Virus record (IMG/VR): IMGVR_UViG_3300017917_002704
Location: 1 to 58,915 of that record
Reading direction: 5' to 3' (one strand)
Source of the DNA: a virus
Length of the DNA stretch: 58,915 bases
In this document: piece by piece, positions 8,684 through 29,481 of the stretch
Numbering within the stretch: the stretch's first letter is position 1
How the letters are laid out: every line of letters starts with the position of its first letter
Program-made: the position numbers and the translations under genes
The notes under the pieces: model-generated
The model's database searches: none
The model's input: only the letters and a program-made list of their open reading frames with translations
What the model was told of the DNA's origin: nothing

Positions 8684-9835
8684 ATGAGTCTAAATCGAAA
8701 TGCTCGTGCGTTTGTTGCTGCAGCTGAAGAAGCTTATGGCATCGGTTCTATTGTGACCCGTGATGGTATTGCGGCCATTGTTGAAGAGCATAATGTTCCG
8801 TATCCTCACTGGCTGGTCACCAAGTCAGAGTATCGCGTTGAACGTGGGCGTTATAAACTGCCAGATATTGGCACCAAGCCCAAAACCAAAACTCAGGTAC
8901 AACCTGAACCTGAAATGGAAGTTGCTATGGCACAGGTCGTTGCGTTGCGTCAACCTAAGTTGATTGATGAATCCGATCCTGCAATTCCCTCCAGGTATCC
9001 TGATTATGTTCCCTTTGGTTTCTATACTGATTTGGTGAACATCGTCAAGTCTAAAGAATTCTATCCTGTTTTTATTACTGGGCTTTCTGGTAATGGTAAG
9101 ACCTTGATGGTCGAACAGGTATGTGCTGTTATGAAACGGGAGTGTATCCGTGTTAACGTGTCTATTGAAACCGATGAATCTGACCTTCTTGGTGGTCCTA
9201 CTCTCGTCAATGGCAACGTGGTTAATCGTGACGGGCCAGTTATCATTGCAATGAAACGTGGTGCTGTGTTGTTGATTGACGAAGTTGACCGTGGTTCTAA
9301 TAAGCTGATGTGCTTGCAGGGTATTCTAGAGGGCAAGCCATACTACAATAAGAAGAATGGTGAGGTCGTTTATCCTACCGAAGGTTTCAACGTAATTGCT
9401 ACGGCGAATACCAAAGGCCGTGGTTCAGATGAAGGCCGTTATCTGTCTCAGATTCTCGATGATGCATTCTTGGAACGTTTCCCGATTACTGTTGAACAGG
9501 AATATCCTGATGTAAAGACTGAGAAAAAGATTCTCACGCCTCTTATTGAAGATGCAGAATTTGTGGAAAACCTGGTCAAGTGGGCTGACGTTGTTCGCCA
9601 ATCATTTGACCAAGGCGCAGTTGATGAGATTATCTCCACTCGCCGTTTGGTACACATTGCAAAGGCATTCAAGATTTTCGGTGACCGTATGAAGGCCATC
9701 GAATTGTGTGTGTCTCGCTTCGATGCCGAAACCAAGAATGCTTTCTTGGACCTGTATTCAAAAGTGGACGGCAAAGTTGATGAACTTGTGCACGATGTGC
9801 CTGGTCCGACTCAAACTCAAGAAATTCCGTTCTAA
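8684..9835 (+). CDS. MoxR/CobS-like AAA+ ATPase
   Basis: 383 residues, ATG eight bases after GGAGTG. Walker A GLSGNGKT is at 133-140 and Walker B VLLIDEVDRGS at about 195-205, followed by NVIATANTKGRGSDEGRY (sensor 1/arginine-finger region) and a helical lid. This is the MoxR/CobS branch of AAA+ ATPases; CobS-named homologues are common in T4-like phages although no cobalamin role is shown there. The N-terminal 60 residues form a separate small helical domain with HWLVTKSEYRVERGRY, linked by a Lys/Pro-rich segment. Probably remodels a protein complex during replication or takeover. Confidence 0.85.
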   Translation: MSLNRNARAFVAAAEEAYGIGSIVTRDGIAAIVEEHNVPYPHWLVTKSEYRVERGRYKLPDIGTKPKTKTQVQPEPEMEVAMAQVVALRQPKLIDESDPAIPSRYPDYVPFGFYTDLVNIVKSKEFYPVFITGLSGNGKTLMVEQVCAVMKRECIRVNVSIETDESDLLGGPTLVNGNVVNRDGPVIIAMKRGAVLLIDEVDRGSNKLMCLQGILEGKPYYNKKNGEVVYPTEGFNVIATANTKGRGSDEGRYLSQILDDAFLERFPITVEQEYPDVKTEKKILTPLIEDAEFVENLVKWADVVRQSFDQGAVDEIISTRRLVHIAKAFKIFGDRMKAIELCVSRFDAETKNAFLDLYSKVDGKVDELVHDVPGPTQTQEIPF

Positions 9836-11310: not shown

Positions 11311-12105
11311 ATGAAAATCGCAATTTGTTCTGACCTTCACCTTGAATTTGGCCACATCACCCTTGAGAATACCGAGGGTGCTGAGGTTCTAATTCTTTCT
11401 GGTGATATTTGTACTGCACATGGTTTCATGGAATTTAATCCAGACTGTGTGCATAAGTCTAAGGACTGGCATCTATTCTTCCAAGAGTGTTGCAAGAATT
11501 TCCCTCATGTAATCTATATCATGGGCAACCATGAGCACTATCATGGTGATTTTGCAACAACTGAAAAGATTCTGCGTGATCGTTTGAGTTATCTACCGAA
11601 TCTTCACATTCTAGAAAAGTCCACGTTTACTCTGAATGATGTAACATTCATTGGCGGTACACTTTGGACTGATATGAATAAAGAAGATCCAACGACACTT
11701 CATGCTATCCGTAATATGATGAATGATTTTCGTATCATTAGTTATACGAATAAACGCTTTGAACCAAAAGATGCAGTACAAGATCATCATATGATGTTAC
11801 AATACATTCGTGCGGTGATTGAGTCTAAGTTCAATGGTAAGTTTGTTGTTGTTGGGCACCATGCACCAAGTAAATTGTCTACGCATCCAAAATATGCGAA
11901 TGAGTATTTGATGAATGGTGGTTACTCTTCGGATCTATCCGAATTTATCCTAGATAATCCACAAATTAAATTGTGGACTCATGGGCATACTCACGAACCG
12001 TTTGATTATATGATTGGTTCGACTCGCGTTGTTTGTAATCCGCGTGGTTATGCTGATTATGAAAAACGTGCTGATGATTTTAAGTTACAATATGTAGAGG
12101 TTTGA
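11311..12105 (+). CDS. Calcineurin-like metallophosphoesterase
   Basis: 264 residues. The metal-binding motifs of the family are all present in order: SDLHLEF (8-14), SGDIC (about 30-34), GNHEHYHGD (about 72-80), GHHAPS (about 190-195) and THGHTHEP (about 225-232). These enzymes use two metal ions to hydrolyse phosphate mono- or diesters; the substrate cannot be deduced. Related proteins are frequent in T4-like phages. It is followed closely by two conserved phage genes. Confidence 0.85.
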   Translation: MKIAICSDLHLEFGHITLENTEGAEVLILSGDICTAHGFMEFNPDCVHKSKDWHLFFQECCKNFPHVIYIMGNHEHYHGDFATTEKILRDRLSYLPNLHILEKSTFTLNDVTFIGGTLWTDMNKEDPTTLHAIRNMMNDFRIISYTNKRFEPKDAVQDHHMMLQYIRAVIESKFNGKFVVVGHHAPSKLSTHPKYANEYLMNGGYSSDLSEFILDNPQIKLWTHGHTHEPFDYMIGSTRVVCNPRGYADYEKRADDFKLQYVEV

Positions 12106-13973: not shown

Positions 13974-14528
13974 TTTACATTTTTTGCCGTGCCATCTGGT
14001 GTGATTGGATTTACTAACTTCTAGTTGGCAGTGTTCGCATACGACACGAAATAATTTTGAAGGATTTTTTTCACACATCATCTTTTTGACTTTTAACTTA
14101 AAATCATTTGTGTGCAATTTCTTTCCAAAAATTGGTGACAATTTTCCTGTTTTTCCGTAATTAGGATTATTTTTACCTGCACGTTTTTCGCTTAATAATT
14201 TTCGTGTGTCGTCGGAAATTTTAAAACCAAACGTACCTTCACCGCCAACAGTCATGTTATACCCATTTTCACCAAAAGAATTATATTCTTTTATGAAATA
14301 TTTTTCCATGACATTTAAAGTATAGTCTCGATCTTTTGATTGGTATATTATTTCCCATTCAAAATTTTGCCATCCATATTTTCTTATAGCTTTATGGAAA
14401 ATCCTTGTGGATGTTGAAGACTCTCGGAAATGTTCTTTTTTTCTTGTTGGCCAATTTGAATCAAATCCGATGTACACCTTGTTGTTTATGGTATTTGTAA
14501 CTTTATAGATTGAATATATACTTGACAT
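13938..14528 (-). CDS. GIY-YIG homing endonuclease (copy 2)
   Basis: 196 residues from ATG at 14528, which follows CAGGAG on the minus strand. GIY-YIG core: IYSIYKVTNTINNKVYIGFD, then WPTRKKEHF, KYGWQNFEWEIIY and EYNSFGENGYNMTVGGEG. The C-terminal part has a NUMOD3-like repeat (RAGKNNPNYGKTG) and a final zinc-finger-like CEHCQLEVSKSNHTRWHGKKC pattern (two Cys, later His and Cys). It is antisense, and its 3' end overlaps the gene at 13710 by 36 bases. The first codons overlap a + strand promoter. Confidence 0.9.
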   Translation of the reverse strand: MSSIYSIYKVTNTINNKVYIGFDSNWPTRKKEHFRESSTSTRIFHKAIRKYGWQNFEWEIIYQSKDRDYTLNVMEKYFIKEYNSFGENGYNMTVGGEGTFGFKISDDTRKLLSEKRAGKNNPNYGKTGKLSPIFGKKLHTNDFKLKVKKMMCEKNPSKLFRVVCEHCQLEVSKSNHTRWHGKKCKLFLVAIVHPDE

Positions 14529-14550
14529 GCTGTGTCTCCTGTTGTACAAT
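14522..14550 (+). promoter_or_regulatory. Strong sigma70-type promoter
   Basis: TTGACA at 14522-14527, 17-bp spacer, TACAAT at 14545-14550. It overlaps the start codon of the antisense endonuclease. It would drive the gene at 14627 with a leader of about 70 bases ending in GAGGAG. Confidence 0.65.
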
Positions 14551-14626
14551 GTTAGACATAGAGCCGGTGGATGTTACCGCATCGCGACTGGCACCTTTAT
14601 TTATCTTTTTTGTGAGGAGATGTATC

Positions 14627-14923
14627 ATGAGTATTTTTGTTGAAGTTGATTCGATTGAAAAAAGTTGCCCCGTTATTATTAACCTGGATGCGATTGTTGA
14701 AATTGCACCTTTGGTTACCGGCGGTTGTGTTATTTTCTTTGCTGATTCTGCTGGTATGAATTCGCGTATGGGCATGAAGGTGTCTAATGAATACTCCGAG
14801 TTCAAGCAATTTGTTATGCAAACTGTTTCTGCTGAAGATATTGCCAAGCGTTTCCCTAAGAAGGAAGTCGTAGAAGAAAAACCAGTTAAACTTAAGAATG
14901 AGTTCAAGATTCCTAAGTTGTAA
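14627..14923 (+). CDS. Hypothetical protein, 98 aa
   Basis: Start at 14627 follows GAGGAG by 8 bases; an in-frame ATG at 14510 lies before the promoter. N-terminal two thirds are beta-rich (MSIFVEVDSIEKSCPVIINL), followed by a Lys/Glu/Val-rich tail. Resembles a small PH/SH3-like fold but no family is recognised. Confidence 0.65.
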   Translation: MSIFVEVDSIEKSCPVIINLDAIVEIAPLVTGGCVIFFADSAGMNSRMGMKVSNEYSEFKQFVMQTVSAEDIAKRFPKKEVVEEKPVKLKNEFKIPKL

Positions 14924-18945: not shown

Positions 18946-19027
18946 GCAATCATTAGCATCAATGAAATGGCAATTAAAGTTTGATAATTTTAAGGTAGAA
19001 GGTAAGTGTCAAAAACAATCCTCATAA
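18848..19027 (+). CDS. Tiny exported protein overlapping two genes
   Basis: 59 residues in a frame different from both neighbours. AAGGAG lies 5 bases before ATG 18848. The N-terminus MMWLMILIAVHMSNPKD is a short signal-like hydrophobic stretch; the rest (RIELQFPDQKTCEQSLASMK, later EGKCQKQSS) is polar with two Cys that could pair. It overlaps the phosphoesterase by 98 bases and the glycosyltransferase start by 22. The strong ribosome site and exported-protein architecture argue it is real. It resembles small exported Cys-containing phage proteins, role unknown. Confidence 0.65.
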   Translation: MMWLMILIAVHMSNPKDVPGRIELQFPDQKTCEQSLASMKWQLKFDNFKVEGKCQKQSS

Positions 19028-20022
19028 TAAACGATAATTTGCCGGATCAAATAAATGGTGTGGTCACAACTTACAAAAACATTGAGGCATGTGCGGCTCG
19101 TGACAACTATAACATTGTGGTGCTTCATCCCGGGTGGTTCCGCTACATTGATTGCCCTGGCTACAACGAAGTCAAGATTACCTATCCCCGGCAGGTGGGC
19201 AAGAAGATTGAGGAGATCAATCCGGATTATATCCATATCGCCACAGAGGGTCCTCTTGGTTTGTGGGCTAGAAAGTATCTTTCATTACGTTCTTATCGCT
19301 ATAATACCGCTTATCATACTAAGTTTCCAGAAGGATTTAAAAAACTTTTTGGTATTCCTGAATCTTTAACTTGGAGATTTGTTCGTTGGTTTCATAAACA
19401 TTCTGGTAAGGTATTGACCACCACAGAAACAATGGTAAAGGAGTTACGCAATCATGGATTTGATGGAACTATTATACCATGGACTAGAGGTGTTGACAGG
19501 GATATTTTTTATCCTGAACCTAATTTTACTAAGTCTGGCGTGCTCTTGTGCGTTAGTAGAGTCTCAAAAGAAAAATCATTAGAAAACTTTTTTACATTAG
19601 ATTATCCAGGCTACCGTAAGATAATGGTAGGAGATGGACCTATGTTAGAAACATATAAAAAAGAATATCCCGATGTAGAATTTGTGGGTGCCAAACGAGG
19701 TAAAGAATTAGGTGACTATTATCGTATGGCTGATGTGTTTGTATTTCCTAGTCGTTGGGAAACATTCGGGCTTGTTATGATTGAGGCCATGGCCTGCGGT
19801 ACACCAGTTGCAGCTTATAATTGTCAAGGGCCAGTGGACGTTATTGATCAGGGAATTACAGGATTCGTGGTTTCCGAAAAAGAAAGTTTATCTGTAGCCG
19901 TTGAAAAATGTTTAAAACTTGACAGAAAAGTCGTTTTAAACGGTAGTCAAAGGTGGTCCTGGGAATCTGCATGGCAAATATTCAAAGAAAATTTAGTGCA
20001 GAAAAATGGTAACAATTCATAA
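19006..20022 (+). CDS. Glycosyltransferase family 4-type
   Basis: 338 residues, GTG start preceded by AGAAGG. GT-B fold features: N-terminal LIINDNLPDQINGVVTTYKN (donor/acceptor domain), then VSKEKSLENF, the Gly-rich VGDGPMLETYKKEYP, and the family signature WETFGLVMIEAMACGTPVAA with the E-x7-E pair. Similar to mannosyl/glucosyltransferases that build glycolipids and often lie beside LpxH-like phosphoesterases in bacteria. Probably modifies host envelope glycolipid to block superinfection or alter the surface; this is inference from gene pairing. Confidence 0.85.
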   Translation: MSKTILIINDNLPDQINGVVTTYKNIEACAARDNYNIVVLHPGWFRYIDCPGYNEVKITYPRQVGKKIEEINPDYIHIATEGPLGLWARKYLSLRSYRYNTAYHTKFPEGFKKLFGIPESLTWRFVRWFHKHSGKVLTTTETMVKELRNHGFDGTIIPWTRGVDRDIFYPEPNFTKSGVLLCVSRVSKEKSLENFFTLDYPGYRKIMVGDGPMLETYKKEYPDVEFVGAKRGKELGDYYRMADVFVFPSRWETFGLVMIEAMACGTPVAAYNCQGPVDVIDQGITGFVVSEKESLSVAVEKCLKLDRKVVLNGSQRWSWESAWQIFKENLVQKNGNNS

Positions 20023-26596: not shown

Positions 26597-27916
26597 TTAT
26601 TTTCCTTTACTCAACAAAGCAGGTGTTATATTTACATTTTTTTCTGTTGTTGGTTGTGGTTGTTGTGTTGTTTGTGATACGTTGGCATATTGGTTGGTAA
26701 CGCTATGTGTGGCGGTAGAAGCTAACTGGATTTTCATGTCTTTATTTTCTTTCGATAACTGATCAACTGGAACATCAGATTGTTTTATTGTCGCGATTGA
26801 TGTTGTTTTCTTTTTACCTGAACCATATCCTTCTTGTTTTTCCATGGCATCAAGTACAAATTTTCTCTGTATGTCCGTATACTCAATCATTTTCTTGCGA
26901 GATAACTCTTCATCGGTTACGCCAGCTCGTCTTAACGCCGATTTAATAGCATTTTGATAAGCCACAGTATCGTTTTCGGATGGAGGAGCATATTTCGATA
27001 TCGCAGAATCTACAATTAAATTTTTATAATTGTCTCCTTCAAATATTAGATTTTCTTTCGCTTTTCTTCCCATTTCATATGTTGGAAATACCGCAAATCT
27101 TTCTTCGGGTTTTTGTGATTTTGACAAACCATGATCAAATCGAATCGCTCCCATTTTTAATGCATAATTTCCATATTCAATATTTCCAGGATTATTATTT
27201 CTCCAATTCCATGCACCTTCTTGTTTAACAATTTCACCATTTTGTAATCTAACAATGTTATAACCCTTACCAACTTCAACTACATTAGCAATAGCTGAAC
27301 CTGCCGCAGTTGCGATTGCGGCACCAGTAACAGCAGCTGGTAATAATGATGGTTTGGAAACCACTGGAGGTGTCGTCGATACAGAAGGAGGTGCTGCAGG
27401 TTTTTCTGCTGCCGTTTCTTTTTTAGTGAATCTGCCCCTTGCATCACGAGGTTGTGGAGCTCTTGGCGGTGGAGCTGGAGCCGGCGTTGGTGCCGGAGCA
27501 GGAGCCGGTGCCGGAGCAGGAGCCGGTGCCGGAGCAGGCGCAGGAGCCGGTGCTGGCGCACCTGCCGGTTTTTCTGGAGGTGGAGCTTCTTTCTCCACCT
27601 TTTTTTCCATTTCTTTCTTGGCTTCTTTGGCCTTCTTTTTAACTGCTGGTTTTTTACGACCAGTTAAGGCCTTAATTAATTCCTGATTTCTTCTATTTTC
27701 TTCTTTTTGTTTCAGTGTATTGGAAAGTTCTTCAATTTCTCCTCGAAGTTTTCTTTCTTCTTCAATCTCTACCATCAGATCATATATTTTACCTAATGCT
27801 TCTCTTGATGTATTAAATGTAACACCAGTAGATTCAGGCTTCATTGACTTGAAGCCAAACATAGAAGAAACTGCACTCTTCAGTTTCTGAGATACACTAG
27901 GTTTTTTATCGTTCAT
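26597..27916 (-). CDS. Baseplate hub-like protein with lysozyme-like domain
   Basis: 439 residues. N-terminal coiled coil (about 40-85), a Lys-rich stretch, then a Pro-Ala repeat linker of about 30 residues (from about 120). Residues about 232-365 contain WRNNNPGNIEYG, ERFAVFPTYEMGRKA and ISKYAPPSENDTVAYQNAI, the signature of a phage peptidoglycan-hydrolase-like domain (NNPGN family). C-terminal 75 residues are Gln/Thr-rich. As gp5 here lacks a lysozyme domain, this may be the tail-borne wall-cutting activity. The catalytic residue cannot be named. Confidence 0.65.
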   Translation of the reverse strand: MNDKKPSVSQKLKSAVSSMFGFKSMKPESTGVTFNTSREALGKIYDLMVEIEEERKLRGEIEELSNTLKQKEENRRNQELIKALTGRKKPAVKKKAKEAKKEMEKKVEKEAPPPEKPAGAPAPAPAPAPAPAPAPAPAPAPAPTPAPAPPPRAPQPRDARGRFTKKETAAEKPAAPPSVSTTPPVVSKPSLLPAAVTGAAIATAAGSAIANVVEVGKGYNIVRLQNGEIVKQEGAWNWRNNNPGNIEYGNYALKMGAIRFDHGLSKSQKPEERFAVFPTYEMGRKAKENLIFEGDNYKNLIVDSAISKYAPPSENDTVAYQNAIKSALRRAGVTDEELSRKKMIEYTDIQRKFVLDAMEKQEGYGSGKKKTTSIATIKQSDVPVDQLSKENKDMKIQLASTATHSVTNQYANVSQTTQQPQPTTEKNVNITPALLSKGK

Positions 27917-27919
27917 TTA

Positions 27920-28051
27920 CTACTGCTTCATTCGTTCTTTTAGTTTTCTATTTTCCTCTTCAATATACTGTATCAACATAGTAATATAGATGTCTCTTTC
28001 CCACGGTATCATTCCTTCAAGTTCCGCGAGACTGTATTTGTGATGTTGCAT
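27920..28051 (-). CDS. Small gp51-like hub assembly ORF
   Basis: 43 residues from ATG at 28051 (54 if TTG at 28084 is used). The product HHKYSLAELEGMIPWERDIY and on resembles the small baseplate hub assembly proteins that follow gp26 in T4-like marine phages. No good ribosome site precedes either start. The frame is open upstream without a stop to the slippery site in gp26, so it may be translated only by frameshift. Stop TAG, then TAA and the next ATG follow. Confidence 0.65.
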   Translation of the reverse strand: MQHHKYSLAELEGMIPWERDIYITMLIQYIEEENRKLKERMKQ

Positions 28052-28101
28052 CAACGAGAAATTAGTTTTATAATAATTTCTCAAATCATCATGACGAAGT
28101 G

Positions 28102-28827
28102 TTAACCGAAAAAACTTTCGAGCCCTTCCACATCAATTCGATGTTTAAAACCACATTTACTACATGTCATTTGAATCTTCTCTTTCAATTTAGGAAGATT
28201 ACTAAAGAAATTTTCAACCTTGGCAAATTGTTCCTGGTTCATAGACTCTACGAAATCCAACAATTCTTTAGGTGAAGATTCTTTACCATAATAAAACTGT
28301 TCACCATCATAAATGTAATCAATACTCTGAGCAATCATGGTGAAAGTCAAGTCACTCATGTTTTCCAAATTCAACGAATTCTTAATCATGCCAAATTCTG
28401 GATACTTAAACTTGACCGTCAATTTTTCATTCAGTTGAATTTCCGGTTTAATGTCTTCATTCATTTCAACTTTTAGATTCAACAGATTCAATTTGTGTTC
28501 CATTGTGTTGCCACATTCTTTATCACCAACAATGTTATTGCAACTATATTTCGATTCAACAATTTCACCCACTGATTTGGCTCTCAGTTGAACAAAATAA
28601 AATTCAATATCAATAATTGGCAACGAATCAATATCAACATTCTCAGTCAATGTGCAGTTGTTCAAAATATCCCTAATGGCCGAATGAACATCTGCGGTTT
28701 CATTTGATTCCATGGCCATTAACAGATTTCTCTGCTCTTTGACCAAGAATGGTCTGTATCTAATTTTTTTCTTTGAAACTGGTAAAGTCAATTCATAGGT
28801 TGGTGTATCAATTTTAGGCAAAGCCAT
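28102..28827 (-). CDS. gp26: gp26-like baseplate hub assembly protein
   Basis: 241 residues, T4 gp26 is 208. N-terminal PTYELTLPVSKKKIRYRPFL and VKEQRNLLMAMES are the gp26 family opening. Two Cys clusters, CNNIVGDKECGNTMEH (about 98-113) and CSKCGFKH (about 222-229), suggest zinc. Helps assemble the central baseplate hub. AAGGAGATATT precedes the ATG. Two codons before the stop is T_TTT_TTC (28108-28114); a -1 slip would add 62 residues. Confidence 0.88.
   Translation of the reverse strand: MALPKIDTPTYELTLPVSKKKIRYRPFLVKEQRNLLMAMESNETADVHSAIRDILNNCTLTENVDIDSLPIIDIEFYFVQLRAKSVGEIVESKYSCNNIVGDKECGNTMEHKLNLLNLKVEMNEDIKPEIQLNEKLTVKFKYPEFGMIKNSLNLENMSDLTFTMIAQSIDYIYDGEQFYYGKESSPKELLDFVESMNQEQFAKVENFFSNLPKLKEKIQMTCSKCGFKHRIDVEGLESFFG
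28108..28114 (-). other. Candidate -1 frameshift site T_TTT_TTC
   Basis: In the gp26 frame the codons read AGT TTT TTC GGT TAA. The heptamer fits X_XXY_YYZ exactly, and the -1 frame is open from here to 27922. An 8-bp inverted repeat GAGAAATT...AATTTCTC (28082-28075 with 28063-28056) lies about 25 bases downstream. Predicted fusion: 240 + 62 = 302 residues. Confidence 0.55.
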
Positions 28828-28848: not shown

Positions 28849-29481
28849 TTAATATCCTGTTAGAGTTCTTTCTCCAATTTGTAAAGTCTGTTTTGCAGCT
28901 TGTTCGCTGGAAGTAAAATCAAAAGATGAAAATATTGCTCGATTACCGGTGAAATTTTCCCAACGGGTATATGCAAAAGTAACAACTAATTTGTGGTAAC
29001 CATCACTATTCCAGTCTAAATCCAATTGGTTGATAGAAACTGGAAATGCATTGAATAGATTTACAGAATAAGAAATATCATCAGATACGGTGTATTGGTT
29101 GACAGTGATGATTGTCTCATAATCTTGACGGTATCTAAAATCGTTAGTTGATGTTGGATTTATAAAGTTTAACCAATCATCGAAGAAATTTTTCTGCTGC
29201 ATATCATCATCAACAATAAATGTTAAATCGATGTCATTATATGTGGCCAAATATGGATGTTTTTCGATTGGACCGTAAATTCTTTGTTCCGTGGTCGCAA
29301 GTGTTTTTCCTGGAAGTTGTGCATTTTCACAACGAAAAACTAAATTTCTTGTAACATCAAACTGACCAGCCAAATTGATATCAGTCAAAAACTTTACTGG
29401 TGTGGGAATAAAGACCAGAAATCTGTTCTGTCTTGCAATGTCTCCCTTGAAACTTTGCTTAAAATCGTTGATGCTAGGCAT
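28849..29481 (-). CDS. gp54/gp19-like tail tube family protein
   Basis: 210 residues. NRFLVFIPTPVKFL, LVFRCENAQLPGKTLATTEQ, IYGPIEKHPYLATYNDIDLT and VTFAYTRW follow the beta-barrel pattern of the T4 gp19 tail tube family, which also includes gp54 (tube initiator on the baseplate) and gp48. At 210 residues and lying among hub/baseplate genes it could be either gp54 or a longer gp19; gp54 seems likelier because gp48 is nearby and no sheath gene is adjacent. ATG starts immediately after the preceding stop. Confidence 0.7.
   Translation of the reverse strand: MPSINDFKQSFKGDIARQNRFLVFIPTPVKFLTDINLAGQFDVTRNLVFRCENAQLPGKTLATTEQRIYGPIEKHPYLATYNDIDLTFIVDDDMQQKNFFDDWLNFINPTSTNDFRYRQDYETIITVNQYTVSDDISYSVNLFNAFPVSINQLDLDWNSDGYHKLVVTFAYTRWENFTGNRAIFSSFDFTSSEQAAKQTLQIGERTLTGY

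Follow-up and report, generated by a model that had tools for sequence, protein, structure and literature searches.

Pairs of short and long tail-building helper proteins, the long one produced by frameshifting, are a known kind in many long-tailed phages. The frameshifts of tail assembly chaperone genes, that of lambda (gpG/gpGT) among others, were reportedly described by Xu et al. in 2004. A passage of the Atkins 2016 review (PMC5009743) presents the lambda-type G-T frameshift as widely conserved, with T4 as the exception. According to papers that cite it, the work of Vladimirov, Gautam and Davidson (2022) identified T4-like tail assembly chaperone genes, and by these citations the arrangement described below, which an earlier note on the DNA analyzed here had set apart from the textbook description of T4 gp26/gp51, has a precedent among T4 relatives; no other description of a gp26/gp51 frameshift was found in the literature searched.

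In the databases, the gp51-like second half of this arrangement appears as a separate tiny gene or is missed. A 2010 paper (PMC3037559) puts the length of cyanophage gp51 at a mere 20% or so of that of gp51 proteins elsewhere, and gives gp51 of Aeh1 as missing; a gp51 that is in fact a −1 extension to gp26 would explain both. We report a locus that very probably represents one gene with two products, namely gp26 (241 aa) and a gp26-gp51 fusion (302 aa) made by a −1 frameshift. The slippery heptamer, the selection acting on it and the coding constraint on the −1 frame come from sequence comparison, and the chaperone-like fold of the N-terminal domain comes from structure prediction.

The gp26 locus and its reading frames

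The window, that is, the whole stretch of DNA analyzed, is a 58.9-kb virus record and probably a fragment. Judging by its genes, the virus is a member of the T4 superfamily; the markers of this superfamily in the window are gp48-like, gp53, gp5, gp6 and ssb-type genes. Along the minus strand come, one after another, genes for head closure, a DNA end protector and the tail tube, then gp26, the gp51-like reading, an endolysin-like gene and a 462-aa gene (Table 1). Pfam and PHROGs gave no tape measure assignment to the two genes downstream of the gp51-like reading; the tail tube gene is directly upstream of gp26. Within the window, in a record that is probably a fragment, no further PF12322 copy was found, and searches with the region returned zero matches among phages (megablast) and zero among plasmids. 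The 439-aa gene carries a long Ala-Pro repeat ahead of its endolysin-like domain (27450-27590, minus strand). Elsewhere in the window are genes for a member of a porphyrin biosynthesis PHROG family (phrog_249), a calcineurin-like phosphoesterase and a glycosyltransferase (8684-9835, 11311-12105 and 19006-20022).

Table 1. Features of the gp26 locus in the window, with the related loci that have the tail in −1 and no heptamer
Feature	Position	Strand	Remark
gp26-like gene, zero frame, TAC-N type short tail assembly chaperone	28102..28827	-	241 aa
Slippery heptamer T_TTT_TTC	28108..28114 (28114-28108)	-	two codons before stop
Zero-frame stop TAA, bypassed by the proposed slip	28102..28104	-	
−1 frame extension, gp51-like domain	27920..28108	-	stop at 27922-27920
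Shine-Dalgarno-like GGAAGGG upstream of heptamer, candidate stimulator (inferred)	28123..28129	-	
9-bp inverted repeat, probably outside the signal	28056..28082	-	25 nt after heptamer
Tail tube protein gene, just upstream of gp26	28849..29481	-	phrog_45, E 4.8e-42
Next downstream gene, endolysin-like domain	26597..27916	-	439 aa; phrog_873, E 6.4e-10
Ackermannvirus-type gp26 ends, tail in −1 without heptamer			L089, L091, L092, L336, L337, L341-L349

The window gp26 matches the profile PF12322 (T4_baseplate, the family of T4 gp26 and gp51) at E 5.9e-62 with 209.6 bits, against a curated cut-off of 24.5, and phrog_150 at E 1.3e-65. The gene ends in the codons AGT TTT TTC GGT TAA, and the −1 reading at the junction, TTT TTT CGG TTA ACA CTT CGT CAT, continues open until its stop. 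This extension matches phrog_634 (E 1.5e-28) and the C-terminal part of phrog_150 (E 2.7e-6). The earlier note had placed T_TTT_TTC two codons before the gp26 stop, with the −1 frame open to 27922 and a predicted fusion of 302 residues, and the coordinates, the open frame and the fusion length all agree with what we find.

The AlphaFold2 model of gp26 (pLDDT 87.5, pTM 0.81) resembles, over approximately 90 N-terminal residues, the structures 3fgx, 3klu and the HK97 chaperone 2ob9, with Z of 7.7, 7.4 and 7.2, respectively. We take 3fgx and 3klu to be prophage chaperone-like proteins. The alignment to 2ob9 spans 84 residues at 4.1 A. For models without relatives, the best Z is typically 7 to 8, such that a value under 8 alone is modest; we give weight to this match because the three top rows are of one kind and are separated by a gap from the next, unrelated row at Z 2.7. 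Foldseek against the PDB returned nothing for gp26 at E <= 0.001; 2ob9 came sixth and ninth in its ranking, and it is solely in the second comparison, the one scored by Z, that the chaperones lead. The sequence search for a solved relative gave one chance-level match only. Among predicted structures from viruses, the named proteins that matched best were T4-like baseplate hub proteins, several of them called hub assembly chaperone. The predicted chaperone-like fold of the N-terminal domain supports a chaperone role of gp26 rather than that of a structural hub protein.

Conservation of phase and heptamer among relatives

Relatives were collected by searching IMG/VR with six gp26 protein queries and by adding 13 annotated phage records, and the resulting 348 loci, the window included, were scored with gp26 and gp51-like tail profiles. 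The tail was found in the −1 phase in 337 loci and in none in the +1 phase or in the same frame as gp26; relatives with the small reading frame in other phases, which the earlier note had held would speak against frameshifting, are thus absent from the scored set. The remaining 11 loci were unscored, five because gp26 is cut by the contig end and six for lack of a tail in reach. In four of these six (L125, L170, L188 and L049), the sequence, judged from its length, stops within about 45 nt of the gp26 stop; another, L088, is a divergent locus in which a −1 reading can be made out by eye, and the last, L095, is T4-type.

After removal of identical junctions, the 337 loci yielded 263 distinct 240-nt junctions, which stem from related group members and accordingly are not independent events. 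In 249 of them, a T_TTT_TTN heptamer, its last base mostly C, lies in frame within the −1-open stretch; relatives in which the small reading frame has a strong ribosome site of its own and no slippery heptamer precedes it were the other observation that the earlier note had named as contrary. T_TTT_TTC is present also in four further cyanophage records, in Aeh1 and in KVP40. In six loci, the zero-frame stop is located seven codons further 3', with the heptamer and the phase of the tail unchanged. The remaining 14 junctions are Ackermannvirus-type (three assigned by name, 11 found via the Ackermannviridae gp26 query), and in every one of them the −1 phase is retained, along with a T_TTC tetramer in frame. 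In 13 of the 14, no ATG, GTG or TTG occurs before +32, and RC-2014 has TAATG. T_TTC falls in the Z_ZZN class, which is able to shift in E. coli (PMC4066793).

Could this heptamer be a chance product of a conserved Phe-Phe pair and T-rich codons, with the two frames being ordinary neighbors? TTTTTTY is common in AT-rich DNA; as plain DNA in the window, it is not rare (36 observed vs 80 expected), and the case therefore rests on position and conservation. In 52 likely genes of the window, a list chosen by hand (16,116 codons), T_TTT_TTN occurs six times in frame, and the present one is the only case within the last 10 codons of a gene. In a codon test of 61 aligned close genes (one of the 62 close-group rows was omitted), there are 70 degenerate columns with an invariant residue, and the only ones that use a single codon are the two slip codons, TTT in 61/61 and TTC in 61/61; the eight other invariant Phe columns are all mixed. 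Immediately ahead of the slip, the close group has Ser or Asn, and the full set has Ser, Asn, Asp, Ala, Thr or His; the codon for this residue nevertheless ends in T in 249/249 junctions, a set that was itself selected for six Ts.

Phe-Phe is conserved in T4 as well, but there gp26 encodes it as G TTC TTT and the −1 frame is closed. The same TTC TTT after G is found in the T4-type gp26 genes (six sequences, and likewise in HMGUkp2), with TTT TTT after G in L354; here, too, the −1 frame is closed. The heptamer is gone in these T4-type phages, which have a full gp51. The heptamer context appears to have been lost where the long form has a gene of its own and kept where it does not, a pattern that involves few independent T4-type lineages. 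Given the confinement of codon invariance to two of the 70 columns, the T kept before the slip through changes of residue and this loss in T4-type phages, we consider an origin by chance extremely unlikely.

Slippage of the RNA polymerase on the T run, yielding mRNAs altered by a base and hence the fusion, is another way to join the frames. Among the 249 junctions, 225 have a run of six Ts, 8 a run of seven and 16 a run of eight, lengths that would also permit such slippage. Six Ts, however, is short for polymerase slippage, the run mostly stays at six with C mostly as the last base, the codon phase is always X_XXY_YYZ, and the conserved Shine-Dalgarno-like element upstream, described below, would have no role in transcription. 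This explanation seems exceedingly improbable.

Start codons and candidate stimulators

The earlier note had pointed to the lack of a clear ribosome site and of a well placed ATG for the gp51-like reading, and both observations hold. The first ATG or GTG of the −1 frame in the window is the ATG at 28051 (+53), and there is a TTG at 28084 (+20); near the junction, no ribosome-site pairing was found for either (+1.6 kcal/mol for the ATG and +0.7 kcal/mol for the TTG), compared with a strong −9.3 kcal/mol for gp26. In the group of the window, ATG, GTG and TTG are all absent before +18 in 54 of 62 junctions, and in 61 of 62 no ATG precedes +45. Between the stop and the ATG, variation at −1-frame codon positions 1, 2 and 3 is 0.055, 0.064 and 0.297 (58 rows). 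Because this third-position-biased variation lies upstream of the ATG, in a stretch mostly free of starts before +18, the −1 frame appears to be translated from at or near the slip. From the aligned relatives, we conclude that the −1 frame is under protein-coding constraint and that the heptamer is selected at the nucleotide level.

These results bear on the possibility that gp51 is a separate small protein, with translational coupling letting ribosomes restart close to the end of gp26 at a TTG, an ATG or a non-standard start. In many relatives, gp51 is annotated as its own gene; in P-SSM2-group cyanophages, a start codon precedes +18 in all 65 distinct junctions, KVP40-type phages have TAATG at the junction, and the window itself offers the TTG and the ATG. 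In many cyanophages, where an ATG follows closely after the stop, gp51 could indeed be expressed separately. For the window, though, coupled restart is very unlikely: starts are scarce in its group, neither candidate start has a ribosome site, the codons upstream of the ATG are constrained as −1-frame protein, and the codon-invariant heptamer would be left unexplained. The −1 frameshift of the tail assembly chaperone kind, proposed in the earlier note, is instead supported by the conservation of both phase and heptamer.

Structure testing covered one stem and the fold of the window region. The inverted repeat that the earlier note had seen about 25 bases downstream exists, with 9 bp, but is not conserved: no more than 7 of 60 sequences, the window included, retain every one of its nine pairs, and double changes in the stem occur at one position only. 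The fold of this region in the window is no better than that of shuffled sequences (z −0.28). On account of this non-conservation and of the fold score, the downstream hairpin is rejected as a stimulator.

A better, and good, candidate is the conserved Shine-Dalgarno-like stretch that ends about 10 nt before the heptamer. In the group of the window, its mean pairing with the 16S tail is −7.8 kcal/mol, against −5.1 after synonymous shuffling and −2.1 at other places of the gene; the same comparison in the other three groups agrees in direction (−8.8/−5.8/−2.4, −7.3/−5.7/−3.2 and −6.3/−5.0/−3.0). In random samples of 30 per group, the stretch is the strongest-pairing place within 200 nt before the heptamer in all four groups; by excess over the synonymous expectation, it ranks 1, 1, 4 and 5 of 67, and the places above it are mostly overlapping windows of the same stretch. 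The Shine-Dalgarno motifs and spacing listed in a section of PMC4066793 are matched in 196 of the 249 junctions. A strict motif is present in 43 of 62 junctions of the window group, against an expectation of 33% from synonymous codons and 2% elsewhere; the GGAAGGG of the window itself is not on the strict list. AGAGG is found at the same place in some T4-type genes that have no heptamer.

The proposed frameshift and its counterparts

Under the model that we favor, the majority of ribosomes would end at the TAA and release the short chaperone, whereas a minority, their P and A sites both occupied by tRNA-Phe on T TTT TTC, would move back one base onto TTT TTT, where both tRNAs could re-pair fully, and would carry on in the −1 frame to produce the fusion. 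PMC4066793 counts UUY with the A-site codons that are comparatively prone to shift in E. coli, a tendency that is stronger if both X and Z are pyrimidines. The ribosome may be held up at the Shine-Dalgarno-like stretch upstream, which would aid the slip. By analogy with lambda gpG/gpGT, the product roles of which are described in a passage of the Atkins 2016 review (PMC5009743), the gp26 part common to both products would attach to the tape measure protein, and the gp51 addition would bring in subunits of the tail tube. That the slip takes place, how often it does so, what stimulates it and these assembly roles are our inferences.

None of the 18 annotated split-type phage records examined joins the two frames, and their annotations accordingly lack the fusion. 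In Aeh1 (L357, gp26 at 14002-14778, minus strand), an unannotated gp51 lies in the −1 frame after GAT TTT TTC GAC TGA. In CC2, VmeM-32 and Sf-CH1b (L086, L087 and L361), gp51 is likewise unannotated, yet the reading is present in −1.

In T4, both gp26 and gp51 belong to PF12322 (E 8.8e-64 and 3.9e-52) and match each other weakly by blastp; T4 gp51 consists of the PF12322 part plus the extra gp51 tail and matches phrog_150 nearly end to end. By these profile matches, T4 gp26 and gp51 are paralogues, and T4 gp51 is the natural in-frame form of the fusion, such that T4 apparently uses two genes for what the window phage would make by one slip. The T4 record also annotates gp26', the product of an internal in-frame start in gene 26 (L083, 3803-4090, minus strand). 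A broader scheme, to which we assign about an even chance, is that the T4 superfamily employs a two-part signal of bacterial type, a Shine-Dalgarno-like pause ending about 10 nt before T_TTT_TTY and the heptamer itself, that the Ackermannviridae retain a reduced, single-tRNA T_TTC, and that in T4 the slip was replaced by gene duplication, with its hub assembly catalyst gp51, a puzzle of long standing, being the long chaperone.

The T4 pair thus shares with the window locus the PF12322 family and the C-terminal tail on gp51, but differs in having two full genes, one on each strand, in lacking the heptamer and in its closed −1 frame. With lambda gpG/gpGT, the window locus shares a heptamer for a −1 slip towards the end of the gene for the short chaperone, the position of this gene directly behind that of the tail tube, a short form with a predicted long fusion, and an N-terminal domain with a predicted fold resembling the HK97 chaperone; it differs in protein family, PF12322, and in slip sequence, T_TTT_TTC. 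Compared with these systems, the window locus adds to a known kind of frameshift chaperone, the Shine-Dalgarno-like element and the resolved gp51 gap being modest additions.
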